NCBI GenBank assembly: GCA_014904985.1
Contig: MU128924.1
Span: forward strand, 69,958-133,957
Length of the DNA stretch: 64,000 nt
Origin: Hydnum rufescens UP504
Lineage: Eukaryota > Basidiomycota > Agaricomycetes > Cantharellales > Hydnaceae
Reading direction: 5' to 3'
Shown: positions 19,191 to 61,455 of the stretch, one piece after another
How positions within the stretch are numbered: position 1 is the first letter of the stretch
Layout of the letters: every line of letters starts with the position of its first letter
Position numbers and translations under genes: made by a program
Notes under the pieces: generated by a model
Database searches by the model: none
What the model saw: only the letters and a program-made list of their open reading frames with translations
Told to the model about the DNA's origin: nothing

Positions 19191-19248
19191 CTGACCCACT
19201 GCCTACCCTTGCCTAATAGTTTATTTAATTCAATCCACAAAAAAACAT
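19191..19248. other. Junction of NLR remnant and transposon island
   Basis: Between the last WD40-like words (about 19,190) and the first GTGTGTGG hairpin (19,249) is an AT-rich stretch of about 60 bp. I found no matching terminal inverted repeat at the far side of the array. Confidence 0.35.
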
Positions 19249-20773: not shown

Positions 20774-20900
20774 ACCTTGGTCAGTCATCTAAGCCTACCT
20801 AGTTAGGTACCACTTCCAGGGCAGATAATGGTACCTAAGTAGGTCTCATCACTATTTCGGCTGAAATGGCCATTTTTATGATTTCACCTCCTGGCCCAGA
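20774..20900 (+). repeat. Terminal inverted repeat-like end (CACCTTGGTCAG)
   Basis: The sequence CACCTTGGTCAGTCATCTAA and the next roughly 80 bp reappear inverted at about 33,700-33,802, with few changes. The first bases resemble the ends of element B (CACCTTAGGCAG). The flanking bases do not give a matching target duplication, so the two ends may belong to different insertions or a rearranged element. Confidence 0.55.
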
Positions 20901-21326
20901 ATTGGCCGAAATGGCCAAAAATTGGCTGAAACTGGGACTTAGAGAATCTCAGACTTGCAGTGGGTCATACGGGCATACTGGGGATAGTTCCATTTATAAT
21001 TATTTATATTATACATATACCCCCACTCAGTGTTTCCTTCAGTGGTCAGTCCTGTTATTGACTTGGTTATTTATTGATTTATTTATTTAAAAAATTCAAT
21101 TAATATACTACACACCCACTTGGGCAGGTGTGGTACCATCCCTCAAAATTAAAAAAAAAATAAGTAGCACCACACCACCCTAGCGGGTGTGGTACTGTCC
21201 ATACAAATCAAAAGAAAAAAAAGCACTACTTAGTAGCACCACACACCTGCTTGGGTGGGTGTGTGGTACTGTCCCTCAAAATTTAAAAAAGAAAAAAACT
21301 AAGTGGCACCACACCCACTTGGGTGG

Positions 21327-22701: not shown

Positions 22702-23250
22702 GTGGGTGTCTGGTTTGGGTCAGTTCTTTGGTGGGGTGTTCGTTGGGTTTTCACTTGGCACAGTTTCAGTTGGGGCTCATATGGATGTTGGTCAGTGGGG
22801 GCTTGTAGGGTGTTGGTGCAGCTTGAGACCTAGAATATTAAAATATTATTTAGAAATTCGAAGCAGCGCAAAAGGAGCAGCTATCGCTGCTCCTTTTGCA
22901 CAGCTGTATCTATTGGGGGGGGAAACTCACATTAAACAGGGCCACACACCTGCTGTGGTGGGTGTGTGGTTCCTGGGCTACCCATTGGGTGGTCCATTGT
23001 TTTTTTGGGTATGGCTCTTGCCATTTGGACCCTCATCATGTGGCGGGTTTTTGTCTCTGGCCGCAGACCATAATCTAAAATAATAAAAGCTATATTAGTA
23101 TAAGAATTCAAAGTGGTGCAAAAAGAGTAGCTTGCACTACTCTTTTTGCGCCATTGTCTCTACTAAGACAAAAACTTACCTTATGACCACACACCCGCAG
23201 CAGCAGGTGTGTGGTTGTGTGGTTGTGGTCATGCGGTCATGGTCATGCAC

Positions 23251-23283
23251 TGTTGCTGCTGCTGTTGCTGCTGTTGCTGCTGT

Positions 23284-23315
<32 letters not shown>

Positions 23316-23485
23316 CTGTTGCTGCTGTTGCTGCTGCTGTTGCTGCTGTTGCTGCTGTTGCTGCTGTTGCTGCTGTTGCTGCTGTTGCTGCTGTTGCTGC
23401 TGTTGCTGCTGTTGCTGCTGTTGCTGCTGTTGCTGCTGTTGCTGCTGTTGTTGCTGTTGTTGCTGTTGTTGCTGTTGCTGTTGTG
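23251..23485 (-). repeat. CTG/CAG repeat, polyglutamine-like on minus strand
   Basis: An interrupted (GCTGTTGCT)n tract of about 230 bp. On the minus strand it reads as one long CAG/CAA run that would encode some 75 Gln, followed by CMTMT and then the type 1 hairpin and a GTAAGT donor. The same order (CAG run, tgcatgaccatgacc, hairpin, donor) recurs at 59,944-60,100 on the plus strand. Confidence 0.85.
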
Positions 23486-23534
23486 TTGTGGTTGTGTGGT
23501 CACTTGCTGGGTGTGGCTGCATAGAGTTGCAAAA

Positions 23535-24182
23535 TTCAATGCCGGCAATTGCCAATACTCAAGAAGTGCCCAAGCGCTGGTGCTGCAAGCACAGTACACA
23601 ATAGTACCAAGCATGTATATTATAAATAAATACTATATAATAAAAATGTGTCCAGGAAAACCTGAAGAAGATGATGGTAATGAGTCAGAGCTCAATAAGG
23701 CATGAGATTGCTAATTACAGAGTGGATTGGGCCACTTCTACACATCAGAATTGGCCCAAATTTAACTATAGTAGTGTTATACATACACTCTACATGGGTG
23801 ATTAATTATCTTGGACAATTTTCGCATTTTTCAATTTTTCACACCTTCAATTCCCTATTTAGGGAATTGAAGGTGTGAAAAATTGAAAAATGCAAGAATC
23901 ATCCGAGATAGTCAATCGCCCATGTAGAGTGTATATATAACATTACTATATTTAAATTTGGGCCAATTCTGATGTGTAGAAGTGGCCCAATCCACTCTGC
24001 AATTAGCAATCTCATGCCTTATTGAGCTCTAACTCATTATCATTGTCTTCTTCGGGTTTTCCTGGACAAATATTTATTATATAGTATCTATTTCACATAT
24101 ACATGCTTGCTACTATTGTGTACTGTGTTTGCAGTGCCAGCACTTGGGCACTTCTTGAGTATCAGCAATTGCCGGTGTTGAA
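23535..24182. repeat. Palindromic centre of element A
   Basis: Two inverted arms of about 323 bp meet at 23,858 (TTCCCTATTTAGGGAA). The arms match well, with scattered substitutions and short indels; the left arm continues into the CAG tract and the right does not. Arrays of opposite orientation leave from both sides, so the centre could act as a bidirectional promoter. That is an inference. Confidence 0.8.
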
Positions 24183-24239
24183 TCTCCATCTTGCTTCCCA
24201 TCTCTGCAACCACAACAAGGAACCGCCTGAAAAGGCAAG

Positions 24240-26665
24240 TGCATGACCACGCACCCACTGCTGTGGGTGTGTGGTCACAAGGTGAGTATTTTTTCTAGTA
24301 GATACAATGGCACAAAAAGAGCAGTGAAAGCTGCTCTTTTTGTGCTGCTTTAAACTTTTTTACTAACAACCCTTTATTATTCTAGGTCATAGCCTGGTCC
24401 TGGGTGCCAAAGGATGAGGCCCAGCCAGTCAGACCCCATACGGTAATATGTGAACTGAAAACATGCCAAACGAAACGACATGACCCAACAACACAACACC
24501 ATGCGATGCAACACCACGCAACATGACACCATGTGATGCGAAACCCAACGAGACCAAACCCAACCCAACAACATGAAACCCAGCAACACAAAACCCAGTG
24601 ACATGCAACCCAGCAACACAAAACCCAGTGACATGAAACCCAGCAATGCAAAACCCAGCGACATGCAACCCAGCAACACAAAACCCAGTGACATGAAACC
24701 CAGCGACATGAAACCCAGCAATGCAAAACCCAGCAACACAAAACCCAACAAAACAACACCCAGCCAACTGAGCCTGAATGAAAACATGAGAGGTGGTGAT
24801 ACACCGCCCAAGTGGCCAAGTGAACCACACACCCACTGTGGCGGGTGTGTGGTTCTATATAAGCTAAGTCCATGTTCCCACCTGGCACAAAAAGAGCAGC
24901 ACTTGCTGCTCTTTTTGTGCTGTTTTTAAATTTTTAACCAATGTTTTATTTCCCATTCTAGGCCAGGATATCCCCCCACAACTGAAAGCCCCCATGTCAT
25001 GCAAATTGGAATGCCTGAACAGGTGAATAAATGAATGAAGGCAGGCACACAACACCACCAAGACAAAAGTAGGGAGCCACACACCTGCTGTGGTGGGTGT
25101 GTGGCAATATTAGCTATGTTTTTTTTTAATAACTGCAAACATGCAAAAAGAGCAGCAGTCACTGCTCTTTTTGTGCAAGTTTTGATATAACTAATGTTTT
25201 ATTTCTATTCTAGGTCAAGCTGTCCAACCTCAATGTGCGGACCCCCAAGCCAATGAGTACACCACCAACCCAACCCCACCCATATGAAACCATGAACCAG
25301 GAGGGCAGGAGAATAGGGCCACACACCTGCCATGGCAGGTGTGTGGCCATATAATGTATGTATTCTTTTAATTTTAGCTAACACATGAAACTTACACCAC
25401 CAAGCCCAAATCTGCCAACCCACCAACAAAACCCAGTGTGACCCCAGACAACAAACCTGCTGAATGACATGCTGTGAACAAAAACCAGGAACAAAACCCT
25501 GCACAACTGCACAAATGAAAACCATGAACACCCATATGAATAAAAACTGCAAACACTCCCTTGGGAGTCTGCCCAAATGGAGCCCAGGCCCCCGACTGGG
25601 ACATATGAGCCACACACCCACTGCAGCAGGTGTGGTGGATTTAAGGTACTTTTCTTCTACTAATGTGTTATTTATTAACCTGGCCCACCACCTGCAAACC
25701 TGCAACCTGCATGAACTGCCCCCCTGTGGTGGCAGACCCTGGGGGGGGGGGATAATATGTTACATTAGTCTAGGGTACAATCAACATAATGGTGAGACAA
25801 TGACCCAGCCAAACTGTGACCTGGCAAAATACCAAACAAGGACCCAGCCAGCCCATAACCCACCCAATCCACGACCCACCAAAACAACAAATGACACACC
25901 AACCTGTAACACCAACAAAACACAAGAGCACACAGCCACCTCTATACCCTGACCCTCGATTTTCCATAATGACAAAACAAATATATGCCACACACCTGCT
26001 TCAGTGGGTGTGTGGCACTATCAGGTGAGTTTCTTTGATTACAGGGTGTATGATGACGCCAAAAGAGCAGCACCAGCTGCTCTTTTGGCATTACCTTTGA
26101 ATTTTTTTTTCTTTTACTGACATACTGTTATTCTAGGGACTTATACCCAACCCGACGAATGTACAGATAATGCCCAGGACAAAACATGGGAGCATGCAGC
26201 CACCTCTATCCCCTGACCCTTGATTTTACACAACAACAAAACAAATACATGCCACACACCCACTGAAGCAGGTGTGTGGCACTATCAGGTGAGTTTCTTT
26301 GATTACAGGGGGGTATGACAATGCCAAAAGAGCAGCACCAGCTGCTCTTTTGGTGTTACCTTTGAATTTTTTTCTTTTACTGACATATTATTATTCTAGG
26401 GACTTATACCCAACCTGACAAATGTACAGACAATGCTCAGGACAAAATGTGGGAGCACGCAGTCACCTATATCCCCTGACCCTCAATTTTACACAATGAT
26501 GAAACAAATATGTGCCACACACCCACTGAAGCAAGTGTGTGGCAATATTAGGTCAGTTTTTTTGATTATGGGGTGTATGACAATGCCAAAGGAGCAGCAT
26601 CAGCTGCTCTTTGGGTGTTACCTTTGAATTTTTTTCCTTTACTGACATGTTATTCTAGGGACTTA
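24240..26665 (+). repeat. Hairpin exon/intron-like array A, right (plus-oriented)
   Basis: This is the mirror of the left array. Type 1 hairpins lie at about 24,244, 24,823, 25,075, 25,318, 25,609, 25,985, 26,250 and 26,512. Type 2 hairpins lie at 24,310, 24,884, 25,141, 26,058, 26,322 and 26,583. Good donors (AAG|GTGAGT, CAG|GTGAGT) and acceptors (TTATTCTAG) flank several type 2 hairpins, with ACTAAC or ACTGAC about 15-25 bases before the acceptor. Two units have CT in place of GT at the donor (near 24,860 and 25,110). The last three units (25,900-26,665) form a near-perfect tandem repeat of about 265 bp. Confidence 0.7.
24570..24760 (+). repeat. 15-bp minisatellite encoding KPSNT/KPSDM pentapeptides
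   Basis: Units of 15 bp (AAACCCAGYRACAYR) repeat about a dozen times. In the plus frame, the direction of the surrounding array, they read as alternating KPSNT and KPSDM/QPSNT pentapeptides. The tract lies in an exon-like module between intron-like modules, in the same kind of place as the CAG and GAC tracts of the other arrays. Confidence 0.75.
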
Positions 26666-28799
26666 TACCCAACCCAACAAATGCAGTGAACCTGTTATAC
26701 AATGTGTATATAATAATAAATAATAATATAGTAATCACAAAGGGTCAGTGAAATAGGAAAGTGAGGGAAGCCAATAATCCCAACCATAGGCCTCAGATAT
26801 TTAAACCTGCCTCCATATCCCCAGGGATGGTGGGTTCTTGGTGGGTTTTGGCCACAGCCTGGTCAGGCATATAGAGGGGCCTTAAAAGGAGGGACACATT
26901 GATAATTTAAGTAGGCCTAAATGGCTGGAATCGAGGTTGATGTCAAGTGATGATCAAACAATTGAATGTTGATGACAGTAAACCACAATTTGACAATCTT
27001 CTGACATCAAGCATTGTCAAGTGCCTCATTTATTGGGACTTGTGCAAAATGTCTGTTTATAAACCACATATGGGCTAAGCACCTCAGTGAACTACTGAGG
27101 CTGACCTCAAAAGGAGTACCAGCAGAGGTTGTTTAGCTGGACTAATGAGGCATAATTTTCTGGGATGTCAATTGACAATCCTCAAATTGACCTTACAGGA
27201 AAGTGGATGGGACTCAATATCAATACTACATGTATCATACAGTGGGGAATGCCCAGATCATGGCATGAATGGGCTTGATGAATTTGGGTGAATGAGATGA
27301 ATCTAACAAGCCTGCAAACATCCCAAATGGACAAGATTTGATGATCCCAGGCAATGTTGAGTGGGAGCAGGGGACAAGATGAGGAGCACTGAGGCCAAAA
27401 GGTATCAGAATGTCTTGAAAGTGGGAGCGTTGGAACGCTGAAATTCAGGCACACAGAATGCACCCACACACAGTGGTCCCAACAACCCCCATCCCCCTGG
27501 AGGACCACATGGGGGGATTGGGACAAGATTGAAGATAACAAAATGAGAAGTGCTCGGATCATGGCATGAATAGGCTTGACGGAACCGGGTGAACGAGACG
27601 AATCTAATGAGCCTACGAACATCCTGAACGGACAAGATTTGATGATCCCAGGTGATGTTGAGTGGGAGCAGGGGAGCAGATGAGGAGCACTGAGGCCAAA
27701 AGGCATCAGAATGTCTTGCAAGTGGAGGCATTGGAAAGCTGTGATTCAGGCGCACAGAATGCACCCACACACAGCTGTCCCAGCAACCCCCATCCCCTTG
27801 GAGGACCACATGGGGGGATTGGGACAAGATTAAGGATAACAAAATGAGAAGTGCTCAGATCACTGCATGAATAGGCTTGACAGATTTGGGTGAACGAGAT
27901 GAATCTAATGAGCCTACAAACATCCCAAACAGACAAGATTTGATGATCCCAGGCAATGTTGAGTGGGAGTAGGGGAGGAGATGAGGAGCACTGAGGCCAA
28001 AAGGTATCAGAATTTCTGGAAAGTGGGGGCATTGGAAGGCTGCAATTCAGGCACACAGAATACACCCACACACAGCTGGACCAACAACCCCCATCCCCCT
28101 GGAGGACCACCTGGGGGATTGGGACAAGATTGAGGATAATGAAGTGAAAAATGCTCGGATAGTGGTGTAAATAGGCTTGGCAGATTCGGACGAATGAGAT
28201 GGATCCAACGAGCCTAAGAATGGCCCGGACGGACAAGATTTGATGCTCCCAGGAGATGTTGAGTGGATGAAAGCAGGAGATGAAGAGCACTGAGGCCATC
28301 CACTGAGGGTGGGGGCATTGAAAAACTGTGATTCAGGCACCTATCAGGCACCCACACACAGCCCTAGCAACAACCCTCATTCCCCTGGAGGATCACATGA
28401 GGTGATTGGGAAAGGTTTGAGCTGTTGAGTTGAAGTTGTCTTGCATTCTTTTGAAGTAAGCTTGTTGGAGAGCTGAGCTTTGGGCACACAGAGTGTGCCC
28501 ACACTCAGCTTCTCCAACAAAGCCATGGTCCCAGTGGGAGCTGGGACCATTTCATTTGAAATGAGGTGTGTGTTAACAGTGGACTCAATGCCAGCAGTTT
28601 CCATAATTAGCAAAGTGCCCATGTACACAATTGAACAGCAATTTTGCTGCCACTCATGTCCATAATTTCATCATATCTTTCTTTCTCCCCTTTATGTCCA
28701 TATTTTGATGTGCAGTATTCCTGTGTACATATTCCATACTACCACATATGTATGTACAGTATTAGCCTCCTGACCTCTCCCTCAGCTCTTTTTCCAATG
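26666..28799. repeat. Left outer arm of palindrome A2 with roughly 300-bp tandem units
   Basis: About four units of roughly 300 bp run through 27,240-28,340, each containing the word GATCCCAGG(C/T)(A/G)ATGTTGAGTGG. They are mirrored by units of the opposite orientation at 30,270-31,640. Flanking words (TCAATTGACAATCCTC near 27,170) recur inverted near 31,900. Long open frames on the minus strand come from the repeat period and resemble no protein I know. Confidence 0.7.
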
Positions 28800-30200
28800 T
28801 CCATTTAAATATGTCCCTGCAGCCAGGGGCATGGACACTATTCAAAATGAGATATATATGTATGAGAAGATGGGAGGCCACTGGCAGCAGTTAGGACTCC
28901 ACTCAGTGGTGAAGGGCCTTGTCACATGTCATACAATCCCATGACTGACTTTTGGATGGTTGTGACACATGGGGACCCAATATTAAAGCACATTTTAATC
29001 TGAGTGCCTCTAACCAATAGGAAAATTTCAACAGTTCTTATATTGGATTTCTGGCATCCACATAGGGATGTTCCTTTGGGTGCTGAATATTCCAGAAATT
29101 AACAATTTCCTCCCCAGAGCCTTCCATGCATCCAATTGCCCTGCACCTGCACACATAGGATATCCAGATACATTTATAACATCCCCCCAAATTTCATATT
29201 CATTACTGCAACATCTGAGTTTCCATAATATTTTCAAGTTTCACTGAAATAGACCCTCCAGTTTGAGCACTTCCACAGTTCCAATCACTCTGATTTTTTG
29301 TAGGCCACACCTGATCACCATTTGAGGCTCAACCTTGAAATTCCACTCCATTCCAAGGACTTTTGACATGGGTCATGTGATCAAGGTTTCCCTCTTCCCC
29401 TCCTTCACTCAGTGATCCCATGTCTACAGAGTTAGGTGTCACCAGGAGTAGTAGTATGTGACAGTGCATGATTCAAATTTCAGGACATTCAATGAATATT
29501 CCATTGAATGTCCTGAAATTTGAATCATGCACTGTCACATACTACTACTCCTGGTGACACCTAACTCTGTAGACATGGGATCACTGAGTGAAGGAGGGGA
29601 AGAGGGAAACCTTGATCACATGACCCATGTCAAAAGTCCTTGGAATGGAGTGGAATTTCAAGGTTGAGCCTCAAATGGTGATCAGGTGTGGCCTACAAAA
29701 AATCAGAGTGATTGGAACTGTGGAAGTGCTCAAACTGGAGGGTCTATTTCAGTGAAACTTGAAAATATTATGGAAACTCAGATGTTGCAGTAATGAATAT
29801 GAAATTTGGGGGGATGTTATAAATGTATCTGGATATCCTATGTGTGCAGGTGCAGGGCAATTGGATGCATGGAAGGCTCTGGGGAGGAAATTGTTAATTT
29901 CTGGAATATTCAGCACCCAAAGGAACATCCCTATGTGGATGCCAGAAATCCAATATAAGAACTGTTGAAATTTTCCTATTGGTTAGAGGCACTCAGATTA
30001 AAATGTGCTTTTAATATTGGGTCCCCATGTGTCCACAACCATCCAAAAGTCAGTCATGGGATTGTATGACATGTGACAAGGCCCTTCACCACTGAGTGGA
30101 GTCCTAACTGCGCCAGTGGCCTCCCATCTTCTGATACATTATATATCCTCATTTTGAATAGTGTCCATCCCCTGGCTGCAGAACATATTTAAATGGACAT
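28800..30200. repeat. Core of palindrome A2, arms about 700 bp, centre 29,498
   Basis: Arms 28,800-29,494 and 29,502-30,200 meet over a 7 bp spacer. The innermost 450 bp or so appear identical: the same 69-residue frame is encoded at 29,237-29,028 (-) and 29,759-29,968 (+). Further out, single-base indels in homopolymers appear (near 28,965 and 28,995), then substitutions near 28,850. Confidence 0.85.
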
Positions 30201-32080
30201 TGGAAAAAGAGCTGAAGGGAGAGGTCAGGAGGGATGGCTATATCTCTCTCTTCCGAATCTGCCAAGCCTATTTACACCACTATCCGAGCATTTTTCACTT
30301 CATTATCCTCAATCTTGTCCCAATCCCCCAGGTGGTCCTCCAGGGGGATGGGGGTTGTTGGTCCAGCTGTGTGTGGGTGTATTCTGTGCGCCTGAATTGC
30401 AGCCTTCCAATGCCCCCACTTTCCAGAAATTCCAATACCTTTTGACCTCAGTGCTCCTCATCTCCTCCCCTGCTCCCACTCAACATTGCCTGGGATCATC
30501 AAATCTTGTCTGTTTGGGACGTTCGTAGGCTCGTTAGATTCATCTCATTCACCTGGTTCCATCAAGCCTATTCACGCCATGATCTGAGCACTTCTCATTT
30601 CATTATCCTCAATCTTGTCCCAATCCCCCCATGTGGTCCTCCAGGGGGATGGGGGTTGCTGGGACAGCTGTGTGTGGGTGAATTGCACCTGAATCACAGC
30701 TTTCCAATTCCCCCACTTGCAAGACATTCTGATACCTTTTGGCCTCAGTGCTCCTCATCTCGTCCCCTGCTCACACTCAACATTGCCTGGGATCATCAAA
30801 TCTTGTCCGTTTGGGATGTTTGTGGGCTCGTTAGATTTGTCTCATTCACCCAGTTCCGTCAAGCCTATTCACACCATGATCTGAGCACTTCTCATTTCAT
30901 TATCCTCAATCTTGTCCCAATCCCCCCATGTGGTCCTCCAGGGGGATGGGGGTTGCTGGGACAGCTGTGTGTGGGTGCATTGCGCCTGAATCGCAGCTTT
31001 CCAATTCCCCCACTTGCAAGACATTCTGATACCTTTTGGCCTCAGTGCTCCTCATCTGCTCCCCTGCTCACACTCAACATTGCCTGGGATCATCAAATCT
31101 TGTCCATTCAGGACATTCATGCACTCGTTATATTTGTCTCATTCACTCAAATCCATCAAGCCTATTCACACTGTGATCTGAGCACTTCTCATTTTGTTAT
31201 CCTCAATCTTGTCCCAATCCCCCCATGTGGTCCTCCAGGGGGATGGGGGTTTCTGGGACAGCTGTGTGTGGGTGCATTCTGTGCACCTGAATCACAGCTT
31301 TCCAATGCCCCCACTTGCAAGACATTCTGATGCCTTTTGGCCTCAGTGCTCCTCATCTGCTCCCCTGCTCCCACTCAACATTGCCTGGGATCATCAAATC
31401 TTGTCCATTCAGGACATTCGTGTACTCGTTAGATTTGTCTTGTTCACTCGGTTCCATCAAGCCTATTTACACTGTGATCTGAGCATGTCTCATTTTGTTA
31501 TCCTCAATCTTGTCCCAATCCCCCCATGTGGTCCTCCAGGGGGATGGGGGTTGTTGATCCAGCTGTGTGTGGGTGCATTCTGTGCGCCTGAATCACAGCT
31601 TTCCAACACCCCCACTCCCAAGGACTTCTGATGCTTTTGGTTTCTGTGCTCTTCTTGGAGTGCAGACCATCAGTCTATTTTACTTGTATTCCCTTGAATT
31701 GTGCCCAGTCATGTATGCATCCACATGAACAGTAAATAGTTCATTATACATAATTGTGACTATCACTGATAATCCCATATTGCCTGCTGACCCTCTAAAT
31801 GGCATCCTCCAGGTTCTCCAACACCTTCCTGATCAGCCATTCAGTGATCCATGTAGCATTGATATTAGGTCCCATCCAATTTCCTGTAAGGTCCATTTGA
31901 GGATTGTCAATTGACATCAAAGAAAAAACAGGCCTCTTAGGCTGACTAGATGAGGGATTTGTCCTGCCTATTAAGGTCAGCCCAAGTGGCTGACCGAGGT
32001 GTTTGGCCAAGGGTCCACATTAACACTCCCACCCCATGGGGCCAAAACCCACAGGTTTCAAAACCCCATGCAATAGCCTA
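30201..32080. repeat. Right outer arm of palindrome A2 with roughly 300-bp tandem units
   Basis: Units of the same family as 27,240-28,340, inverted, at about 30,270, 30,570, 30,870, 31,170 and 31,470 (last partial). The plus-strand open frame over 30,506-31,330 follows the repeat period. 31,800-32,040 mirrors 27,000-27,200. Confidence 0.7.
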
Positions 32081-32572
32081 CATGATATAGGGCTTGTTTG
32101 AAAGAGGTGATTCAGGGCTTTCTACTGGGCATACAAACACAACAAATGCAAGAATTGTGCTACTCCCTGAAACCACACAGAGGTGATAAAGGGACATGGC
32201 AATGATTAAGGACCCTGGTATGCCACCCTCCAGAAACCTCACAGAGGTGGTTTCTGGGTGTTGCAGTGGTCCATCCCCCCCTCCTACTGGATCCAGAGTG
32301 AATGTGCTCAAGTCACTATCCACCTCTGAGTGGATAGTGACTTGAGCACATTCACTCTGGATCCAGTAGGAGGGGGGGATGGACCACTGCAACACCCAGA
32401 AACCACCTCTGTGAGGTTTCTGGAGGGTGGCATACCAGGGTCCTTAATCATTGCCATGTCCCTTTATCACCTCTGTGTGGTTTCAGGGAGTAGCACAATT
32501 CTTGCATTTGTTGTGTTTGTATGCCCAGTAGAAAGCCCTAAATCACCTCTTTCAAACAAGCCCTATATCATG
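32081..32572. repeat. Small near-perfect palindrome
   Basis: Arms of 243 bp (32,081-32,323 and 32,330-32,572) flank a 6 bp loop. I see one C/T difference between arms (near 32,113 and 32,540). No target duplication is evident. It sits just outside the A2 palindrome. Confidence 0.85.
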
Positions 32573-44400: not shown

Positions 44401-46815
44401 TCATGCAGGTCCATATGCTGAAGCTGCAGGCCAATTCTTAACATGGATTCCCCAGATTGCTGAAGACCTTGTTGGAGTGCACTATGATGCAATAGAATTC
44501 ATCTCCATGTTTAGAGTGGCCATCAGAACAAGTGCACCTCATATCTACCTCTCTGGTCTCACATTTGCTCCCACATCATCCCTTGTATATCAGCAGTGGC
44601 AAGGTCAATTCCCAGGAGTTGGAAAACTTGTTCATGGGCAACTTCAGCACTGGCCACAGATTAGGCTGATCTTAAAAGGCCATGATAATTGTGTAACATG
44701 TGTTGCTTTCTCCCCTGATGGCAAGCAGATTGCTTCCAGCTCCTGGGATGAGACCATACGACTCTGGAATGCAGAGACAGGTGCAAGCATTGGCAAGCCA
44801 ATGGAGGGGCATGGTGGTAAAGTCCACTCCATTGCTTTCTCACCTGATGGCAAGCAGATTGCTTCTGGCTCAGAGAATACCATACAACTCTGGAATGTGG
44901 AGACAGGTGCAGGTGTTGGCCAGCCAATGCAGGGCATAATGACTTCATCTTTTCCATTGCTTTCTCACCTGATGGCATGCAGATTGCTTCTGGCTCTCAG
45001 GACAAAACCATCCGGCTCTGGAATGTGGAGGCAGGTACAAGCATTGGCCAGCCAATGGAGGGGCATGGTGATGGCATCTGGTCCATTGCTTTCTCCCCTG
45101 ATGGCAAGCAGATTGCATCAGGCTCCAAGGACAAGACCATAGGACTCTGGAATGCAGAGACAGGTGCAAGAATTGGCCAACCAATGCAGGGGCATAATGA
45201 GATGATCTTTTCCATTGCTTTCTCACCTGATGGCAAGCAGATTGCCTCTGGCTCTGGAGATGGAACCATACAACTCTGGAGTGCAGCAACAGGTGTAAGC
45301 ATTGGTGAGCTGGAAGGATCTGATGTGGATGTCAGATCCATTGCCTTCTCACCTGATGGCAAGCAGATTGCTAGCTGTGATTACAAGTTCATACGCCTCT
45401 GGAATGTGGAGACAGGTGCAAGCATTGGCCAGCCAATGCAGGGGCATAATGAATTAGTCTGGTCCATTGTCTTCTCACCTGATGGCACACAGATTGCTTC
45501 TGGGTCCTTAGACCACACCATATGCCTCTGGAATGTGGACATAGGTGAAAGCATTGGCCAGCCAACAAGGGGGCATTCTAGGGGCATCACATCCATTGCT
45601 TTCTCCCCTGATGGCAAGCAGATTGCTTCTGGCTCTGAGGACCAGACTATACAACTCTGGGATGCAGAGACAGGTGCAAGCATTGGCCAGCCAATGCTAG
45701 GGCATTCTGCTCCCATTGAATCCATTGCTTTCTCACCTGATGGTGCACAGATTGCTTCTGGCTCTGGTGACTGGACCCTACAACTCTGGAGTGTGGAGAC
45801 ATGTAGAAGTATTGGCCAGCCAATGGAGGGGCATGATGGTGAAGTCTACTCCATTGCTTTCTCACCTGATGGCAAGCAGATTGCTTCTGGCTCTAATGAC
45901 AAGACCATACAACTCTGGAATGCAGAGACAGGTGAAAGCATTGGCCAGCCAATGGAGGGGCATCATAAGCGCATCAAGTGCATTGCTTTCTTGCCAGATG
46001 GCAAGCAGATTGCTTCTGGCTCTGATGATCAGACCATACAACTCTGGAATGTGGAGACATGCACAAGCATTATCCAGCCCATACAGCAGCATAATGATGG
46101 CATACAGTCCATTGCTTTCTCCCCTGATGGCAAACAGATTGCTTCCAGCTCCTGGGATGAGACCATACGACTCTGGAATGCAGAGACAGGTGCAAGCATT
46201 GGTCAGCCAATGGAGGGGCATTCCTATAGCATCCCATCCATTGCTTTCTCACCTGATGGCAAGCAGATTGCTTCTGGCTCTGCTGATGCGACTGTACGAC
46301 TCTGGAATGTGGACACAGGTGCAAGCATTGGCCAGCCAATGGAGGGGCACCATGACACCATTTGGTCAATTGCTTTCTCACCTGATGGAAAGCAGATTGC
46401 TTCTGGCTCTGAGGACCAGACCATACGACTCTGGAGTCTGGAGATGTATTCAAGTGTTGGCCAGGAGCATGACAGTGATATCTATTCCACTGCTTTCTTA
46501 CCTAATGGGAAACAGATTACTTCTGGCTCTGATGACAATACTGTCAAAATTTCACAGTTGCCCATTGCAATGTCCAAACACATCCTCCAATATCCTATCC
46601 ATCTATTCCCACTCCCACCACACTCCTTTCATCTTGAGGGTGGGTGGATTTTGGGACCTAGTGATGAGCTTATCCTCTGGGTCCCTCCTGCATACACCCA
46701 ATTCCTGGAGCATCCTAACTGCCACCTTGTGGGATCTACCAAAAAAACCCAGATTGATTTTCAGCACCTTAAATGTGGTGAAGACTGGGCACAATGTCAA
46801 GAACTGGAATGTTAG
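41416..46815 (+). CDS. NACHT-WD40 NLR-like receptor, copy 2, long WD40 domain (frameshifted)
   Basis: It starts [19 protein letters not shown]. The C2-like exon (KRYRLDIP), helical domain (41,950-42,320), second helical exon and NACHT follow as in copy 1; FIDAFDES is near 43,340 and VVVTSR near 43,435. The NACHT frame is broken by one-base losses near 43,003 (CC for CCC) and 43,137 (CCC for CCCC), with further losses near 43,830, 43,996 and 44,935. All lie in short runs or near them. From 44,690 there are 14-15 WD40 repeats of about 43 residues (two seven-bladed propellers would fit), uninterrupted from 44,977 to TAG 46,813-46,815. The tail after the last repeat ([35 protein letters not shown]) resembles the C-terminus usual for agaricomycete NWD proteins. 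It is either a pseudogene or a functional gene with uncorrected homopolymer errors. Confidence 0.8.
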
Positions 46816-50300: not shown

Positions 50301-51599
50301 GTGTTTTCCAAGGACTCCTTTGATCAGCTCCCCAGCTGGAAACCATGGGATCACCACATTGAGTTTAACAAGGGAGTCCAGCTACCTCCCCCAGCCAAAC
50401 TCTTCCCACTCTCCCCAGCTGAGCAAAAGGAGCTCGATGACTTCCTGAAGGAAGACCTGGCCTCTGGTCAGATCTGCCCTTCCAAATCCCCTATGGCTGC
50501 CCCAGTGTTCTTTGTGAAGAAAAAAGATGGAGGTTTTTGGCTGGTCCACGACTACTGGAAACTCAATGACATCACTGTTAAGAATGCATACCCCTTACCT
50601 CTGATCTCCAATGTCATTGACTGACTCCAACAAGCCAAAGTGTTTGGGAAACTGGACTTGCAGTGGGGCTTCCAGAATATCCAGATGGCTGATGGAGAAG
50701 AATGGAAAGCAGCTTTCCATTCTAACCAAGGACTGTTTGAACCCTTGGTCATGTTCTTTGGACTTTGCAACTCTCCAGGCACCTTCCAAAACATGATCAA
50801 CAATGTCCTCCAAGAGTGGATTGAAAATGGAGTGTGTATCGTATATCTGGATGACATCCTGAGCTTCACCAAGACATGAGAGGAGTATGTCCATGGAGTC
50901 CATGGGATCTTACAGACACTCCAGGAGAACAAACTCTTCCTGAAGCCAGAGAAGTATGAGTTCTTCCAGGACCAGATCAAGTATCTGGGGCTGGTATTCA
51001 CTCCAGATCATGTGGAGATGGACCCAATCAAGGTTGCAGGTGTGGTGGAGTGGCCAGAGCCCAAAAGCTTGAAGGAGACACAACCATTCCTGGGGTTCAT
51101 CAACGTCTACCACTGGTTCATTCAGGACTTTGCTAAAGTTGCCAGGCCTTTGAATGACCTCACCCAGAAAGACACCCCCTTCCAATGGGCCGATGCTGAA
51201 TGCAATGCCTTTGTCAAGTTGAAAACCCTTGTCACCTCTGCACTGATCCTAGTCTTCTGATCTGAGTCTGGATGCTTCTGAGTAGAAGGTGATGCCTCTG
51301 GATATGTGACTGGAGCAGTACTCTCACAACTCCAAGAGGATGGGAAGTGGCATCCAGTAGGTTTCCTGTTGAAGAGTTTGTCAGAAGCTGAAAGGAATTA
51401 TGACATCTATGACAAGGAACTCCTGGCCATTGTCAGAGCTCTAGAGGCATGGAGACACTACTTAGAGGGTTCCCCACATCCAGTCAAGATCCTGATGGAC
51501 CACCAGAACCTTCAGTACTTCTGGACTGCACAGAAGCTGAATCAGAGACAAGCCTGGTGGAATATTTTCCTCTCCCAGTTCAACTTCACCCTCCAGCAC
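50301..51599 (+). pseudogene. Gypsy reverse transcriptase-RNase H segment
   Basis: RT fingers and palm: LPPPAKLFPLSPAEQKELD, PVFFVKKKDGGFW, AYPLPLISNVID, FGLCNSPGTFQNMIN and the catalytic YLDDIL. RNase H: GDASGYVTGAVLSQLQ and DKELLAIVRALEAWRHYLEG. Stops at 50,296, 50,622, 50,877, 51,258 and 51,280 are all TGA in positions where CGA (Arg) is expected. It ends with LQH at element B's target duplication. Confidence 0.85.
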
Positions 51600-52343
51600 C
51601 ACCTTAGGCAGCCCTATTTCCGTATCTAATTAGGTAGTCTTTTTCTGGTAAAATAGTATGTCTAATAGACCCATAGGCGCATGGCCCCACATGTCTTAAG
51701 AACCTACCATGGCCCCCTGAATATTAGGGCCCATGGACCCATGCCAGGGGATTTTTGAGACACTGGCCCCATGAAAAACCCCCCTCAGCTCTTTGACAAG
51801 CTGGCATCATTCTGGCATTCACCTTCATGTCCATCGGGGTTCGGGGTTACTGCATCGGTCATCGCCCATTCAAATAAATGATTTGGATCCGCTGCATCCA
51901 AAAAACTCAGCAGCATCCATCGGTATGTGCCCCCTCTGGCAGCAGGATCACTGGCAGGACAGTGGGCAGCCCCAAATGATGGCCATGCACCAGAAATCAG
52001 CCTGCTGGGGCTGCTCATTTAAAGGCGGAAGAATTTCCTTATTTGGAAATCACATGTTCACTCGAACTCTATCTTCATTGCACATTCCAGCCTGCTACAG
52101 GGCTTTGTTGGCTGCTAATTGGACAGCAGACTATCTCTATTGTATAGTACAAAGAAAGGACTACAAATATATACAAAATTGAATTCACAAAACAAATATT
52201 ACATGCGCCCGGTGCCTACAGGTGTAGGGCATGTGACCTGAAGGGGAAATATGTTGGAGAGAACCTAGGAGCCCATGCACAGAAATTTTCGTGTGCATGG
52301 GTGCCCTGGTTCCTCCGTTATTCTCCATTTCATGGGGGTCTTC

Positions 52344-53434
52344 CTAAATTAATGTAGTGCGAAAAGGGCAGCTTAAAGCAGCCCTGTTTGCGCTATAGGA
52401 GAGGTAAGAATGAAGGGACTTACCTTATCACCACACCCCAGCAATGCTGGGGTGTGGTGTCCTGCTGATCGTGTGGCAGTTTGGATCTTCGGGATCTTCA
52501 GTTGTATGGGGTCGTAAGACCCGCGGTCATTCGCAATGACAACAACGGCATTGCCGTCATTGTCATCATGTGAAGTGGGGGTGGAGGGTACAGTTAGGAC
52601 TAGTGTAGTCCCTGAAATGAAAACGAAGTATTAGTATGTGATTAAAGCAGCACAAAAAGGGTAGCCTGAAGCTGCCCTTTTTGCGCAAGATGAGATAAAG
52701 GACAAATAAACTTACCTTATTACCACACCCCAGCTTTGCTGGGGTGTGGTTTCCTGTTTCAGGTGCTTTATCGTCGGTTTCTTTCATCATGCGGGGTCAT
52801 ATGACCCATGTCGCCCATCGGTGGCGACGGGATCGTCATTTGTCAGGCATCCATACCGTCAGTTGAAGCGCATGAGGAGGGGGGATAGCAGAGAGAGACC
52901 CTGTAATGAAACAAGTGCAATAGTTAGTAAAGAAGCAAAGCTACGCAAAAAGGGCAGCTTAAGAGCTGCCCTCTTTGCGAAAGGTGAGATAGATAATATA
53001 ACACATACCTTATCACCGCACCCCAGCGAGGCTGGGGTGTGGTGTCTTGCTCATGGCGACTCGTCGTTGATTTCTTCAGCTGCGCAGGGGGCATGAGACT
53101 GGTCAATCGTGCGGATGACCACCGCATTGTCCCCATCAATGGCGACGATGCGATCTTGATCATTGTTTGGCGTGCGGGGGGCGGTTGGGTGGGTGCAATA
53201 GTCCCTACAACGAAGACGGTTCTCAAAGTATTAGTAAAAATAAGAAAAGGGGCAGCTGAAAGCTGCCCCACTCGTGCCAGAGGGGATGTATGAAATATAC
53301 GTACTTTGTCATCACACCCCAGCGAGGCCGGGGTTGGTCATGCGCGGGATACAGAAGCGCATTGTGTGCGATGCCGATGATAGCACCATTGTCGCCATCG
53401 TCATCGCCGTCGTCGTCGTCATCATCATCATCAT

Positions 53435-53465
<31 letters not shown>

Positions 53466-53660
53466 ATCGTCATCGTCATTGTCATTTGATGTGCAGGGGG
53501 TGCGCAGGCGAGTGATAGTCCCTATGATGAAAAGAATTCAAGATGTAAGTAAATAACGAAAGGAGTGCAAAAGGAGCGGCTTGGAACTGCTGCTTTTGCA
53601 CAGAACTGAATGAAAATCGATACCTTATTCACCACACCCAGCATTGTCACTGGGTGTGGT
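52344..53660 (-). repeat. Element B left array: five intron-like and five hairpin exon-like modules
   Basis: On the minus strand the intron-like modules are 53,522-53,623, 53,215-53,304, 52,901-53,008, 52,612-52,715 and 52,344-52,423 (102, 90, 108, 104 and 80 bp). Each starts GTA(C/T/A)G-like, contains a GGGCAGC...GCTGCCC-type hairpin, and ends TAG or CAG. Each preceding exon-like module ends in ACCACACCCCAGC...GCTGGGGTGTGGT followed by AATAAG or GATAAG. The first full exon-like module carries a GAC/GAT tract of about 75 bp and is open to its end (LYPAHDQPRPRWGVM). The module at about 53,009-53,214 is open except for one TGA shortly before its hairpin. Confidence 0.8.
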
Positions 53661-54788
53661 GCTTGCTGCGCTCAACGGGTCGCTTTGTCAGGCGTTGGAT
53701 GAAGCCATGACTCAACGCTGGCAAGTGCCGGATTTAAAAAAGCGCCGAACATCCAGCAGAAAAGACACCACATAGCAGTGCTTCAGCCTGCGTACTAAAA
53801 CAATTATGCACAACATTTTATTTTATAGTTATTCTGGTGATAATATTGAAGATAAAGACAAGAATGAGCAAGATCTGAGTAAGGCAATATATTATGACCC
53901 TAAACAGGGGATTGGGTCGCATGTATACATCAGAGTGCCCCCAAAATTAAATATTGTGGCCATATGTATGTATACTATGTGATAGATACGTCAAAATGGA
54001 TGTCAGATATGCATAAGAGTATAATTTCCTTATTTGGGTATGTGTATTTCCTCATTAGTTCAGTCACATCCTAGTATTAGGGCCTATAAATTGACGATTG
54101 GAACTTGACCCAGCATGCGCACAAAGAAGTATTTTTTTCATAATTTCTGACGCAAATGCTATGTCACGGGTTCCGCACAATCAGAGTAGTTGCATGCTGG
54201 GTCAAGTTCCAATCGTCAATTTATATAAATTGACGATTGGAACTTGACCCAGCATGCAACTACTCTGATTGTGCGGAACCCGTGACATAGCATTTGCGTC
54301 AGAAATTATGAAAAAAATACTTCTTTGTGCGCATGCTGGGTCAAGTTCCAATCGTCAATTTATAGGCCCTAATACTAGGATGTGACTGAACTAATGAGGA
54401 AATACACATACCCAAATAAGGAAATTATACTCTTATGCATATCTGACATCCATTTTGACGTATCTATCACATAGTATACATACATATGGCCACAATATTT
54501 AATTTTGGGGGCACTCTGATGTATACATGCGACCCAATCCCCTGTTTAGGGTCATAATATATTGCCTTACTCAGATCTTGCTCATTCTTGTCTTTATCTT
54601 CAATATTATCACCAGAATAACTATAAAATAAAATGTTGTGCATAATTGTTTTAGTACGCAGGCTGAAGCACTGCTATGTGGTGTCTTTTCTGCTGGATGT
54701 TCGGCGCTTTTTTAAATCCGGCACTTGCCAGCGTTGAGTCATGGCTTCATCCAACGCCTGACAAAGCGACCCGTTGAGCGCGAGCAAG
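53661..54788. repeat. Palindromic centre of element B
   Basis: Perfect or nearly perfect inverted arms meet at 54,224 (TCAATTTATATAAATTGA). Each arm holds a smaller foldback: 27-bp inverted copies of AAATTGACGATTGGAACTTG at about 54,090 and 54,198 (left) and mirrored at 54,225 and 54,336 (right). The centre is AT-rich and separates divergent arrays, so it is a candidate bidirectional promoter. Confidence 0.85.
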
Positions 54789-56121
54789 CACCACACCCAG
54801 TGACAATGCTGGGTGTGGTGAATAAGGTACGATTTTCATTCAGTTCTGTGCAAAAGCAGCGGTTCCAAGCCGCTCCTTTTGCACTCCTTTCGTTAGTTAT
54901 TTACATCTTGAATTCTTTTCATCATAGGGACTATCACTTGCCTGTGCACCCCCTGCACATCAAACGACAATGATGATGACAATGACAATGATGATGACAA
55001 TGACAATGATGATGACAATGATGATGACGACGATGATGATGATGATGATGACGACAACAACAGCGATGACAATGGCGACAATGGTGCCATCATCGGCATC
55101 GCACACAATGCGCTTCTGTATCCCGCGTGACCAACCCCGGCCTCGCTGGGGTGTGATGACAAAGTATGTATATTCCATACATCCCCTCTGGCATGAGTGG
55201 GGCAGCTTTCAGCTGCCCCTTTTCTTATTTTTACTAATACTTTGAGAACTGTCTTCGTTGTAGGGACTATTGCACCCACCCAACTGCCCCCTGCATGCCA
55301 AACAATGATCAAGATCGCGTCGTCGCCATCGGTGGGGACGATGCGGTGGTCGTCTGCACGATTGCCAGTCTCATGCCCCCATGCAGCTGAAGAAATCAAC
55401 GACGAGTCGCCATGAGCAAGACACCACACCCCAGCCTCGCTGGGGTGTGGTGATAAGGTATGTGTTATATTATCTATCTTGCCTTTCGCAAAGAGGGCAG
55501 CTCTTAAGCTGCCCTTTTTGTGTAGCTTTGCTTCTTTACTAACTATTTGCACTTGTTTCATTACAGGGTCTCTCTCTGCTATCCCCCCTCCTCGCGCGCT
55601 TCAACCAATGGTACGGATGCCGACAAATGACGATCCTGTCACCACCGTGGGCGACGTGGGTCATATGACCCCGCATGATGAAAGAAACCGACGATAAAGC
55701 ACCTGAAACAGGAAACCACACCCCAGCAAAGCTGGGGTGTGGTAATAAGGTAAGTTTATTTGTCCTTTATCTCATCTTGCGCAAAAAGGGCAGCTTCAGG
55801 CTACCCTTTTTGTGCTGCTTTAATCACATACTAATACTTCGTTTTCATTTCAGGGACTACACTAGTCCTAACTGTACCCTCCGCCCCCACTTCACATGAT
55901 GACAATGACGGCAATGCCGTTGTTGTCATTGTGAACGACTGCGGGTCTTACGACCCCATACAACTGAAGATCCCGAAGATCCAAACTGCTGCACGATCAG
56001 CAGGACACCACACCCCAGCATTGCTGGGGTGTGGTGATAAGGTAAGTCCCTTCATTCTTACCTCTCCTTTAGCGCGAACAGGGCTGCTTTAAGCTGCCCT
56101 TTTCGCACTACATTAATTTAG
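54789..56121 (+). repeat. Element B right array: five intron-like and five hairpin exon-like modules
   Basis: The intron-like modules are 54,827-54,927, 55,164-55,263, 55,458-55,566, 55,750-55,853 and 56,042-56,121 (101, 100, 109, 104 and 80 bp). They have donors GTACGA, GTATGT, GTATGT, GTAAGT and GTAAGT and branch-like GTTAGTTA, ACTAATA, ACTAACT and ACTAATA. Four of the five acceptors are followed by GGACTA or GGTCTC; the last is followed by GAAGAC. The exon-like modules between them are 236, 194, 183 and 188 bp. The last (55,854-56,041) is open for 62 codons, ending GHHTPALLGCGDK. The 183 bp one (55,567-55,749) has a single TGA and ends GNHTPAKLGCGNK. The first carries the GAT/GAC tract and, compared with the left arm, has a 2 bp loss near 55,128 that creates TGA. 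The modules do not all join in one frame. Confidence 0.8.
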
Positions 56122-56872
56122 GAAGACCCCCATGAAATGGAGAATAACGGAGGAACCAGGGCACCCATGCACACGAAAATTTCTGTGCATGGGCTCCTAG
56201 GTTCTCTCCAACATATTTCCCCTTCAGGTCACGTGCCCTACACCTGTAGGCACCGGCTCATGTAATATTTGTTTTGTGAATTCAATTTTGTATATATTTG
56301 TACTCCTTTCTTTGTACTATACAATAGAGATAGTCTGCTGTCCAATTAGCAGCCAACAAAGCCCTGTAGCAGGCTGGAATGTGCAATGAAGATAGAGTTC
56401 GAGTGAACATGTGATTTCCAAATAAGGAAATTCTTCCGCCTTTAAATGAGCAGCCCCAGCAGGCTGATTTCTGGTGCATGGCCATCATTTGGGGCTGCCC
56501 ACTGTCCTGCCCAGTGATCCTGCTGCCAGAGGGGGCATGTACCAATGGATGCTGCTGAGTTTTTTGGATGCAGCGGATCCAAATCATTTATTTGAATGGG
56601 CAATGACTGATGCAGTAACCCCAAACCCCAATGGACATGAAGGTGAATGCCGGAATGATGCCAGCTTGTCAAAGAGCTGAGGGGGGTTTTTCATGGGGCC
56701 AGTGTCTCAAAAATCCCCTGGCATGGGTCCATGGGCCCTAATATTCAGGGGGCCATGGTAGGTTCTTAAGACATGTGGGGCCATGCGCCTATGGGTCTAT
56801 TAGACATACTATTTTACCAGAAAAAGACTACCTAATTAGATACAGAAATAGGGCTGCCTAAGGTGCCAGCAC

Positions 56873-59943: not shown

Positions 59944-59955
59944 CAACAGCAGCAG

Positions 59956-60033
<78 letters not shown>

Positions 60034-61455
60034 TGCATGACCATGACCACATGACCACACACCTGCCGATGCAGGTGTGTGGTCATAAGGTAAGTTTTAT
60101 CTCAATAGATACAATAGCACAAAAAGAGTAGCACAAGCTACTCTTTTTGCACTGCTGTGAATTTGTATACTAATGTAGCCCTTATTATTCCAGATCAAAA
60201 CCAAAACAAATGACAGGCTTCCCAATGAGTGGGCCCAGGAACCACACCCACTGCAGTGGGTGTGGTACAATTTAAGGTGAGTCTCCTCCCCCCAATAGAT
60301 GCAGCTGCACAAAAAGAGCAGTGAAAGCTGCTCTTTTTGCATCACTTTATATTTTTTAACTAATAATATTTTATTCTAGGTATTGCCACAACTGAAGACC
60401 TGCAAAGCAACCCCCCCAGGATGATAACATGCCCACAAATGGGATCCACAAATGACAACATGTCACATGAAGAGATGAACCACACACCTGCAGTAGTGGG
60501 TGTGTGGTTCTATACTTGGTATGTACTCCCAATGACACAAAAAGAGCAGCAAAAGCTGCTCTTTTTGCATCACTTTTAATTTTTTCACTAATCATATTTT
60601 ATTTTAGGTATTGGGACACATGAAGACCACAAGGAAACCCCCCCAGAATGATAACATGCCCACAAACTGGACCTGAAAATGATGACATGCCACATGAGGA
60701 GACAAACCACACACTTGCAGTAGTGGGTGTGTGGTTCTATACTTGGTGTTAATTCGGTAGTATCCAAATTAAGGAATGGGGAGGGACTGAGAGGTGGAGG
60801 AGGTTCCAGATCCAAGGGATCAGTCCAGTCCATGGGACTAAGGCTATTCCATCTAGCCTCACTGGCTAGGAGCTCCTGGTGGGGTGGAGTTGCTATACCC
60901 ATGAGGGCAAAGTGAGAAGACTTAGTCATAGGACTGGGGGTTGCACAGTGTGTAGTGCATAATCAACAAGTCCACAACTTCATGAGCTGGACAGTTGAAG
61001 GTGGTGGAAAAGATAGATTTTCCCAGGCATTGCCATGGCTCCTTCCATACAAGTTGTGTAAGTGTAACTAAGGAAGGCTTAAGTAAGAAGGGGCAAGTCC
61101 TGGGGCAGCACCAAACTCCTCTGTGAGGAGAAGCTTCCCACCAGTTTAGGTTTAGAAGTTATAGTAAAAGCAATCTAAAGGATGAAGTAGCCACATGGCC
61201 TAAGGGACTCATAATACCACTAACACTCAGTATGTAATGCACCAATGGTGCAAAAAGAGCAGCTTTTGCTGCTCTTTTTGTGTTGCTTTTAATTTTTTAA
61301 CTTATAAATCTTTATTCTAGGTATCACCACAAATACAAATGAAGACCCACAGTGCAACCCCCCACCCCCCTCCCCCCTGAATGATAACATGCCTGCAAAT
61401 GACAACACACCAAATGAAGACATGGGACAATGCCAAAACTGGTACAAACCACACC
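59944..61455 (+). repeat. Hairpin exon/intron-like array C
   Basis: It starts with a CAG/CAA tract (59,944-60,031), then a type 1 hairpin at 60,052. Clear intron-like modules are 60,090-60,193, 60,277-60,379 and 60,519-60,607 (104, 103 and 89 bp), with donors GTAAGT, GTGAGT and GTATGT, type 2 hairpins (60,118, 60,308, 60,535), ACTAAT and TTATTCTAG-type acceptors. Exon-like modules share GATGATAACATGCC and end NHTPAVVGVW or NHTLAVVGVW. After 60,740 an unrelated stretch of about 490 bp interrupts the array; a type 2 hairpin and acceptor resume at 61,247-61,320 with another module to about 61,455. No opposite-strand partner lies in the window; the gypsy LTR occupies its place. Confidence 0.75.

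Follow-up and report, generated by a model that had tools for sequence, protein, structure and literature searches.

Foldback, or long-inverted-repeat, transposons have long inverted arms and are flanked by a target-site duplication (TSD). For the KDZ (Kyakuja-Dileera-Zisupton) transposons, the available text of PMC12730594 gives TSDs of 7 bp for Kyakuja and of 8 bp for Zisupton and the Dileera element Zisupton-1_PGr, and describes Kyakuja-1_LB and -2_LB as being without inverted ends. Symmetric stwintrons and the introner-like elements of fungi are present in high copy number, with inverted repeats or a predicted structure (PMC8469720 and PMC9860276, in excerpt). They are introns at new gene positions, and the excerpt of PMC9860276 names only Pezizomycotina among the fungi. 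Titles and abstract openings in the open-licence literature yielded no account of a mobile element that carries a mirrored pair of non-coding exon-intron arrays as cargo, and the accessible part of a survey of Laccaria transposable elements (PMC3411680) does not mention mirrored arrays; both are weak evidence of absence.

The window, a stretch of 64,000 nucleotides from Hydnum rufescens UP504, contains at positions 51600-56865 a 5,266-bp element that forms a near-perfect palindrome, with CACCTTAGGCAGCCC at both termini (Table 1). The original prediction of perfect termini, a 7-bp TSD and an inverted repeat across the full 5.27 kb was borne out: the complement of the left terminus ends at 56865, CCAGCAC flanks the element on both sides, and 2549 of 2649 aligned columns match between the arms. 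The insertion lies in a reverse-transcriptase/RNase H gene of a retroelement. In all seven other copies of the flanking retroelement that were compared, drawn from at least 39 other places (best 40 of 103 candidates), the two flanks abut and overlap by exactly 7 bp, and these copies thus represent the uninterrupted, empty site. The further suggestion, that the element relies on splicing for its tolerance within genes, was not supported, because a palindrome with outward-facing arms cannot be spliced whole from a host gene and because this copy is itself inserted in a retrotransposon.

The genome search with the termini that had been proposed returned 79 exact ends, a total in agreement with the list of positions, compared with one in the reversed control. 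A 12.7-kb element (C48:47258-59968) has the same ends and an 8-bp duplication, and it encodes a KDZ domain (PF18758, E 2e-16) together with a CxC1 match just under the cut-off. In a scan of eight of its open frames, KDZ and CxC1 were the sole matches at E 0.01, with no TET/JBP dioxygenase among them, and the element contains no array units of the kind described below. Eight elements were fetched with both ends, the KDZ-coding one included; six have a TSD (7 bp in two, 8 bp in four) and two have none. The same-ended relative with a KDZ transposase and the duplications of 7 or 8 bp identify the 51600-56865 element as a KDZ DNA transposon belonging to a multi-copy family. Among its listed open frames of at least 150 aa there is a single one, of 222 aa, which runs antisense to the right array and has no Pfam match. 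As the element carries no transposase of its own, we call it non-autonomous. The KDZ transposase, the retroelements and STAND-WD40 genes are in keeping with a mushroom-forming fungus; a search for 5.8S rRNA gave no match.

Each arm holds five outward-reading units, in which a hairpin at the end of the exon is followed by the GT donor, the intron hairpin, the branch site and lastly the AG acceptor. A covariance model (R1), trained on 51 sequences, two of them taken from this element and others from related ones, detected all ten units, those of the left arm on the minus strand and those of the right arm on the plus strand. Together with the TSD and the empty sites, this agrees with the predicted mobile palindromic element, whose hairpin exons and hairpin introns form mirror-image arrays that face outward. 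Intron sizes and their order are likewise mirrored between the arms, as foreseen; the 80-bp length of the intron 5 pair reflects borders placed by eye, and a scripted call took a later acceptor (118 bp). The claim that all five segments of each arm have donor, branch-like and acceptor sequences stood for introns 2-4 but only in part for the others, the branch site being altered or lost in intron 1 and no consensus branch site being present in intron 5. Given these defects, only three introns in each arm appear to be fully competent.

Table 1. Features of the palindromic element and its flanks (window positions)
Feature	Position	Strand	Hairpins
Left target-site duplication, CCAGCAC	51593..51599		
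Terminus CACCTTAGGCAGCCC, 15 bp, outermost stretch of inverted arm	51600..51614	+	
Left subterminal region / proposed last exon of left arm, no array unit	51600..52343	-	
Left-arm intron 5, 80 bp (borders by eye), GTAAGT donor, consensus branch site absent	52344..52423	-	exon 52429-52459
Left-arm intron 4, 104 bp	52612..52715	-	exon 52722-52750
Left-arm intron 3, 108 bp	52901..53008	-	exon 53019-53039
Left-arm intron 2, 100 bp	53205..53304	-	
Left-arm intron 1, 102 bp, branch site altered	53522..53623	-	exon 53630-53661
Palindromic centre of two 557-bp arms, 100% complementary and without spacer	53668..54781		
Right-arm intron 1, 101 bp, branch site lost	54827..54927	+	exon 54789-54820
Right-arm intron 2, 100 bp	55164..55263	+	intron 55199-55219
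Right-arm intron 3, 109 bp	55458..55566	+	exon 55422-55452, intron 55494-55515
Right-arm intron 4, 104 bp	55750..55853	+	exon 55715-55743
Right-arm intron 5, 80 bp (borders by eye), consensus branch site absent	56042..56121	+	exon 56006-56036
Right subterminal region / proposed last exon of right arm	56122..56865	+	
Terminus, inverted CACCTTAGGCAGCCC copy	56851..56865	-	
Right target-site duplication, CCAGCAC	56866..56872		

The GT donor, branch site and AG acceptor are kept in introns 2-4 of both arms and in most copies of subfamilies A-C, with individual losses, and the donor of intron 5 is CT, not GT, in the three copies of subfamily B shown. Splice borders are preserved across subfamilies A, B and C, between which whole arms are 65-82% identical. 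A unit grammar, whose rules were drawn up after inspection of the same sequence, gave 87 matches in 218 kb of loci and none in one first-order Markov shuffle of each; it superseded an earlier structure-only detector, which returned 39 units and missed most of those in the 51600-56865 element. Fold z-scores ranged from -5.2 to -8.8 in the four units tested. In Rfam, 13 matches were obtained at E up to 1, none of them reaching the gathering score.

Covariation was scored in an alignment (A1) of 51 of 56 non-redundant units, the 56 having been thinned by similarity from the 82 of 87 units that passed length and score filters. Three of the five units left out are without an evident exon hairpin, one has a misplaced acceptor and one an imperfect exon hairpin. 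Both stems covary, with two-sided changes in 16 of 28 pairs. Cells with two-sided changes number 95, compared with a shuffled mean of 29 and with at most 27 when the partner is slid by 1-3 columns, and none of 500 column shuffles, a control that ignores the relatedness of the units, reached the observed covariation. With the intron stem trimmed by its two outermost pairs, as in all headline counts, G-U and A-C mismatches in the unfitted A1 stand at 23:3 in the intron stem and 27:21 in the exon stem. Among model-fitted units thinned by similarity (64 of 173), the corresponding counts are 32:8 (bootstrap share 0.65-0.93) and 35:24 (0.45-0.75). When the two outer pairs are included, the intron stem gives 39:22 in A1 and 111:49 in A2, which consists of the best 150 of 284 model matches, weak opposite-strand matches being among the 284. 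A cruder one-column measure leans more weakly (39:27 in the intron stem, 54:48 in the exon stem and 139:270 in unpaired columns) in A3, which has 70 units from 12 sources; the union comprises 173 units. The intron stem's preference for G-U over A-C, about 4:1 or more against about 3:2 in the exon stem, fits selection acting on RNA. This stem lies between donor and branch site and covaries in its inner part in the manner of RNA (G-U over A-C), as in a structured, zipper-stem-like intron. Splice-site conservation between subfamilies and the RNA-type covariation of the intron stem support, but do not prove, that the array units are spliced.

The arrays are widespread. As whole pattern totals for the 63-Mb genome, the exact intron hairpin has 2,112 occurrences, and the succession of exon hairpin, donor and intron hairpin has 983, with none in controls; DNA-query searches of the genome scored the best 40 of 93, 594 or 103 candidates, and their counts are lower bounds. 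Arrays elsewhere are also divergent and surround a palindromic centre partly homologous to the one described here. Of 79 listed matches to the centre (best 40 of 594 candidates), 76 pair into 38 inverted pairs lying 1-4 bp apart. Within 5 kb of a centre, the position of which was assigned by the investigator, 107 of 117 units read outward; eight of the ten inward-reading units were attributed to a neighbouring element through homology to locus L036, and two lie in L013. Locus L013 is a copy with an assembly gap. Another locus, L009, has its own flanks inverted (98% over 295 bp) without a duplication; it was set aside as evidence of palindrome formation in place, because an assembly U-turn between haplotypes would explain it just as well. 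Contigs C1-C5, from which the exact 15-bp ends are absent, hold frequent arrays, and the array cargo is thus not tied to the transposon at 51600-56865. Element ends were sought for the CAG-type arrays and none were defined. The idea of a one-off packaging of introners was not supported, given that the array type is genome-wide and that all five loci fetched as apparently isolated hairpins (L029-L033) carry two or more units.

We consider it probable, reasoning from sequence, that the locus is a non-autonomous KDZ element carrying two near-identical, divergent and spliced non-coding transcription units. A KDZ transposase would act in trans on the CACCTTAGGCARCCC ends, and the cargo would be two near-identical non-coding transcription units that read outward from a palindromic centre, itself a putative bidirectional promoter. 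Each arm would form a tandem array of units of about 290 bp, comprising a hairpin-ending exon, a GT donor, a hairpin intron and an AG acceptor, with the intron hairpin placed between donor and branch site. Its covariation and position suggest that this hairpin, as RNA, may shorten the path from donor to branch site in the manner of yeast zipper stems. The arrays probably expand via tandem duplication, and the likeness of the arms could be maintained by inter-arm conversion or template switching.

Alternatively, the arrays may be palindromes at the DNA level only, their symmetry arising from replication template switching or cruciform repair, with the splice motifs as passengers and the RNA functionless. 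Exon-stem loops do occur in both orientations between copies (AAA/TTT, AAG/CTT), the exon stem also shows two-sided changes without a clear G-U bias, and other kinds of large palindromes are present in the same window. We nevertheless regard this reading as unlikely in view of the G-U bias of the inner intron stem and the retention of donor, branch and acceptor between subfamilies whose arms have diverged to 65-82% identity. Decayed protein-coding genes, in which the arrays would be tandem exon duplications of a repeat-protein gene with a degraded frame, are more improbable still: no phase is favoured (8, 7 and 11 of 37 exons open), stops occur in all phases, indels between subfamilies break the frame, antisense-open exons (28 of 37) exceed sense-open ones (20 of 37), and the longest joined frame among 11 chains is 130 aa. 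A protein-coding array was rejected as the main reading on this phase and stop evidence, with weak signs remaining in a peptide-like run in some exons (for example DDDDPVIAMYDYGAFDPARPKKPTTSHHEQDTTPQ), in exon lengths that are multiples of three in 17 of 37 non-redundant exons (38 of 80 overall), and in the 20 exons with an open frame, where shuffling gives 15 on average (range 9-22). An introner burst, with the hairpin intron itself as the repeatedly inserted mobile unit, is very improbable despite the very high copy number and the resemblance to the inverted-repeat or stably structured introns of fungal introner-like elements (PMC8469720, in excerpt), as exon and intron duplicate jointly, the five loci selected as isolated each hold two or more units, and no single hairpin intron was seen within a host gene among the loci fetched.

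Under the preferred reading of a KDZ element with divergent, spliced non-coding units, the array units apparently belong to a family of spliced, non-coding transcription units that has not been described so far. Should the arrays be spliced, a single genome would contain roughly a thousand or more structured introns of near-uniform type that lie outside protein genes, providing a natural experiment on how intron structure relates to splicing and on why transposons carry introns. More tentatively, and with considerable doubt, we propose a selfish RNA gene or genomic parasite of a new class, in which hundreds of palindrome-centred bidirectional units, carried by several transposon families, would produce long, multiply spliced non-coding RNAs out of tandem hairpin-exon/hairpin-intron units, and efficient structure-assisted splicing (or released hairpin RNAs) would be selected, for instance through evasion of splicing-coupled RNA interference. 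In Cryptococcus, according to the available part of PMC5851062, inefficiently spliced transposon RNAs feed RNA interference, which would make well-spliced parasites a testable counter-strategy.

In comparison with known systems, the element resembles the fungal KDZ transposons Kyakuja and Zisupton in its CA..TG ends, in TSDs of 7 or 8 bp and in having a same-ended relative with a KDZ transposase. It differs from them in that this copy has no recognised coding content, forms a palindrome along its whole length and bears arrays that look spliced, and both TSD sizes occur here within one family. Long inverted arms and a TSD are shared with foldback transposons, but here there is no unpaired middle, splice signals are conserved and the central module is common to other arrays. 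Unlike introner-like elements and stwintrons, exons and introns occur together here, in tandem arrays that diverge from a palindrome, with the hairpin lying inside the intron. In contrast to yeast zipper stems, one near-uniform hairpin recurs in at least hundreds of introns, within apparently non-coding arrays.

The element at 51600–56865 is a single insertion whose ends are CACCTTAGGCAGCCC and its complement, with CCAGCAC flanking it on each side. On its left (51300–51599) it is bordered by an open frame that codes for a reverse-transcriptase RNase H domain (PF17917, 1.2e-30). In all seven other copies of the flanking sequence that were fetched, from at least 39 other places among the matches listed, the flanks abut with a 7-bp overlap, which makes insertion with target duplication as good as certain. 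Aligned to each other, the two arms match in 2549 of 2649 columns, and their central 557 bp are identical, without a spacer; the full 100-column block of lowest similarity falls within the exon-2 repeat of GAT/GAC type. The termini, the 7-bp duplication and the full-length inverted repeat of the original prediction are thereby borne out. At 54085–54364, a pair of 34-bp inverted repeats opens each half of the centre and resembles a small TA-flanked element. Among 44 loci counted, a 24-base core has exact matches only in L009 and L015, although L001 and L037, which overlap the window, are missing from that list as well.

Each arm is organized into outward-reading units with conserved splice sites, in which an exon ending in a hairpin is followed by a GT donor, an intron with its own hairpin, a branch site and an AG acceptor. 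The left-arm introns mirror the right-arm set. All ten units are recovered by R1, a covariance model trained on 51 units (two from this element), each in the outward orientation that had been claimed. The predicted five donor, branch and acceptor segments per arm hold for the five mirrored introns and for the full signals of introns 2–4, but not for the branch sites of introns 1 and 5, whose alteration and absence indicate that the unit array in this copy is partly decayed. For intron 5, the scripted search picked a later AG than the 56121 border, and donor 5 reads CT instead of GT in the three subfamily-B copies shown.

Right-arm introns of the element at 51600–56865
Intron	Window position	Strand	Signals
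1	54827–54927	+	altered branch site
2	55164–55263	+	donor, TACTAAY branch site, acceptor present
3	55458–55566	+	donor, TACTAAY branch site, acceptor present
4	55750–55853	+	donor, TACTAAY branch site, acceptor present
5	56042–56121	+	no consensus branch site

The terminal inverted repeat proved to be multi-copy: the genome contains 79 exact copies of the 15-bp end (42 + 37; R at position 12) against one in the control, and a 200-bp end probe gave at least 41 matches, with mirrored pairs 3.6–12.7 kb apart. The palindromic layout is common to three subfamilies, A (this copy and loci L009, L015, L016 and L020), B (L012, L013, L014, L023 and C317) and C (L021 and L022), some members being partial or gap-containing. 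Arm identity within an element is 97.4% in this copy, 97.9% in L009 and 99.5% in L012; A copies are 95.5–96.7% identical to one another, and L012 is 98.6–99.3% identical to its nearest B relatives, L013 and L014. The arms of L021 come from two subfamilies and are 66% identical to each other, which suggests arm exchange at its palindromic centre. We infer that mild within-element homogenisation with occasional arm exchange fits these arm identities. The outside flanks of L009 (C204:7111–12893) are inverted copies (98% over 295 bp) and a target duplication is absent, reflecting either an inverted duplication or an assembly U-turn.

Genome-wide, the intron hairpin CAAAAAGAGCAGC-N4-GCTGCTCTTTTTG is found exactly at 2,112 places, each reading on both strands, and the exon hairpin 3' arm, donor and intron hairpin 5' arm follow in order 983 times (475 + 508), with a control count of 0 for both. 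Motif rules yielded 87 units in 218 kb of fetched loci, against 0 in one Markov shuffle per source, and all five fetched places with seemingly isolated hairpins hold at least two units. A palindromic-centre probe (about 330 bp per arm) gave at least 79 matches from the best 40 of 594 candidates; 76 of the 79 listed form 38 inverted pairs, 1–4 bp apart. The probed centre is partly homologous to that of the element at 51600–56865 (69% over 114 bp, E 6e-8). Outward orientation is seen in 107 of the 117 units that lie close to an assigned centre. Homology to L036 assigns eight of the ten exceptions to a neighbouring element with its centre beyond the locus, and the remaining two lie in L013, a locus with an assembly gap. 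Contigs C1–C5 yielded no exact match to the 15-bp end, though unit arrays are frequent there, which indicates that such arrays are also carried by other elements.

Within the window, these hairpin units recur in a second divergent array at 19205–26661 (minus strand left, plus strand right), with a 90% complementary palindromic centre at 23534–24183; its element ends were not found. Plus-strand units at 60050, 60235, 60475 and 61210 (60050–61323) follow a CAG repeat (59947–60033), and no left arm was seen for them. A large palindrome of a different kind (27234–31638) consists of tandemly repeated units of about 300 bp, mirrored around a 510-bp inverted repeat (28985–30011, 100% complementary), and 32081–32572 holds a 243-bp inverted repeat, 100% complementary, with a 6-bp spacer. 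Open frames at 13192–15648 combine a STAND-type NTPase domain with WD40 repeats, and those at 44977–46815 carry WD40 repeats; such frames are common in mushroom-forming fungi.

Both stems covary strongly across 51 units, with two-sided change in 16 of 28 pairs and 95 two-sided cells against 29 in shuffles, which ignore relatedness; the signal is lost when the partner column is slid. DNA template switching can also be a source of stem symmetry, as the loops found in both orientations among copies would allow, but the inner intron stem shows an excess of GU over AC. G-U is tolerated in RNA and A-C is not, and at the DNA level the two are equivalent. In the unfitted alignment, GU:AC is 23:3 in the intron stem once its two outer pairs are set aside and 27:21 in the exon stem, and model-fitted units after similarity thinning (n = 64) give 32:8 (share 0.80, bootstrap 0.65–0.93) and 35:24 (share 0.59, bootstrap 0.45–0.75), respectively. 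With all intron-stem pairs counted the ratio is 39:22, and in the model-matched set (95 distinct stems) 111:49. A one-column transition measure on A3, a 70-unit alignment from 12 sources, leans weakly the same way (intron stem 39:27, exon stem 54:48), and unpaired columns lean the opposite way (139:270). We read the intron-stem bias, which is drawn from related sequences, as probable selection on the inner stem as RNA, which would imply outward transcription.

Protein-coding arrays are made unlikely by phase, frame and joined-frame tests: exon phase preference is absent (8, 7 and 11 of 37 open in the three phases), reading frames are broken between subfamilies, and the longest joined-exon frame among 11 chains is 130 aa. 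Counting against a non-coding reading, 17 of 37 non-redundant exons and 38 of all 80 have lengths that are multiples of three, and some open frame occurs in 20 of 37 against 15 in shuffles (range 9–22). A coding ancestor of the exons is possible.

We propose that the central palindrome acts as a bidirectional promoter, which would yield two near-identical transcripts that are not complementary. The introns would be spliced with the aid of their internal stem, much like the zipper stems that assist splicing in yeast introns according to excerpts of PMC12350175, and arrays would grow via tandem duplication. Splicing-coupled RNA interference is reported in Cryptococcus in excerpts of PMC5851062, and its evasion is one testable idea, no more, for why selection might keep splicing.

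Mobility would most likely be provided by a KDZ transposase acting in trans. An element on contig C48 (C48:47258–59968) carries the same ends as the one at 51600–56865, with an 8-bp duplication, and encodes fragments with a KDZ domain (PF18758, 2.2e-16) and a CxC1 match just below threshold. It contains no array units and, within its first 6.5 kb, no long inverted repeat. The element at 51600–56865 is a new non-autonomous transposon in the known KDZ superfamily; a mirrored exon–intron cargo layout is described neither in the titles and abstract openings listed by the literature searches nor in the excerpts consulted. Target duplications among eight elements with both ends are 7 bp in two, 8 bp in four and absent in two. 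The duplications published for KDZ families, in excerpts of PMC12730594, are 7 bp for Kyakuja and 8 bp for Zisupton and Dileera, whereas both lengths are present among the elements described here.
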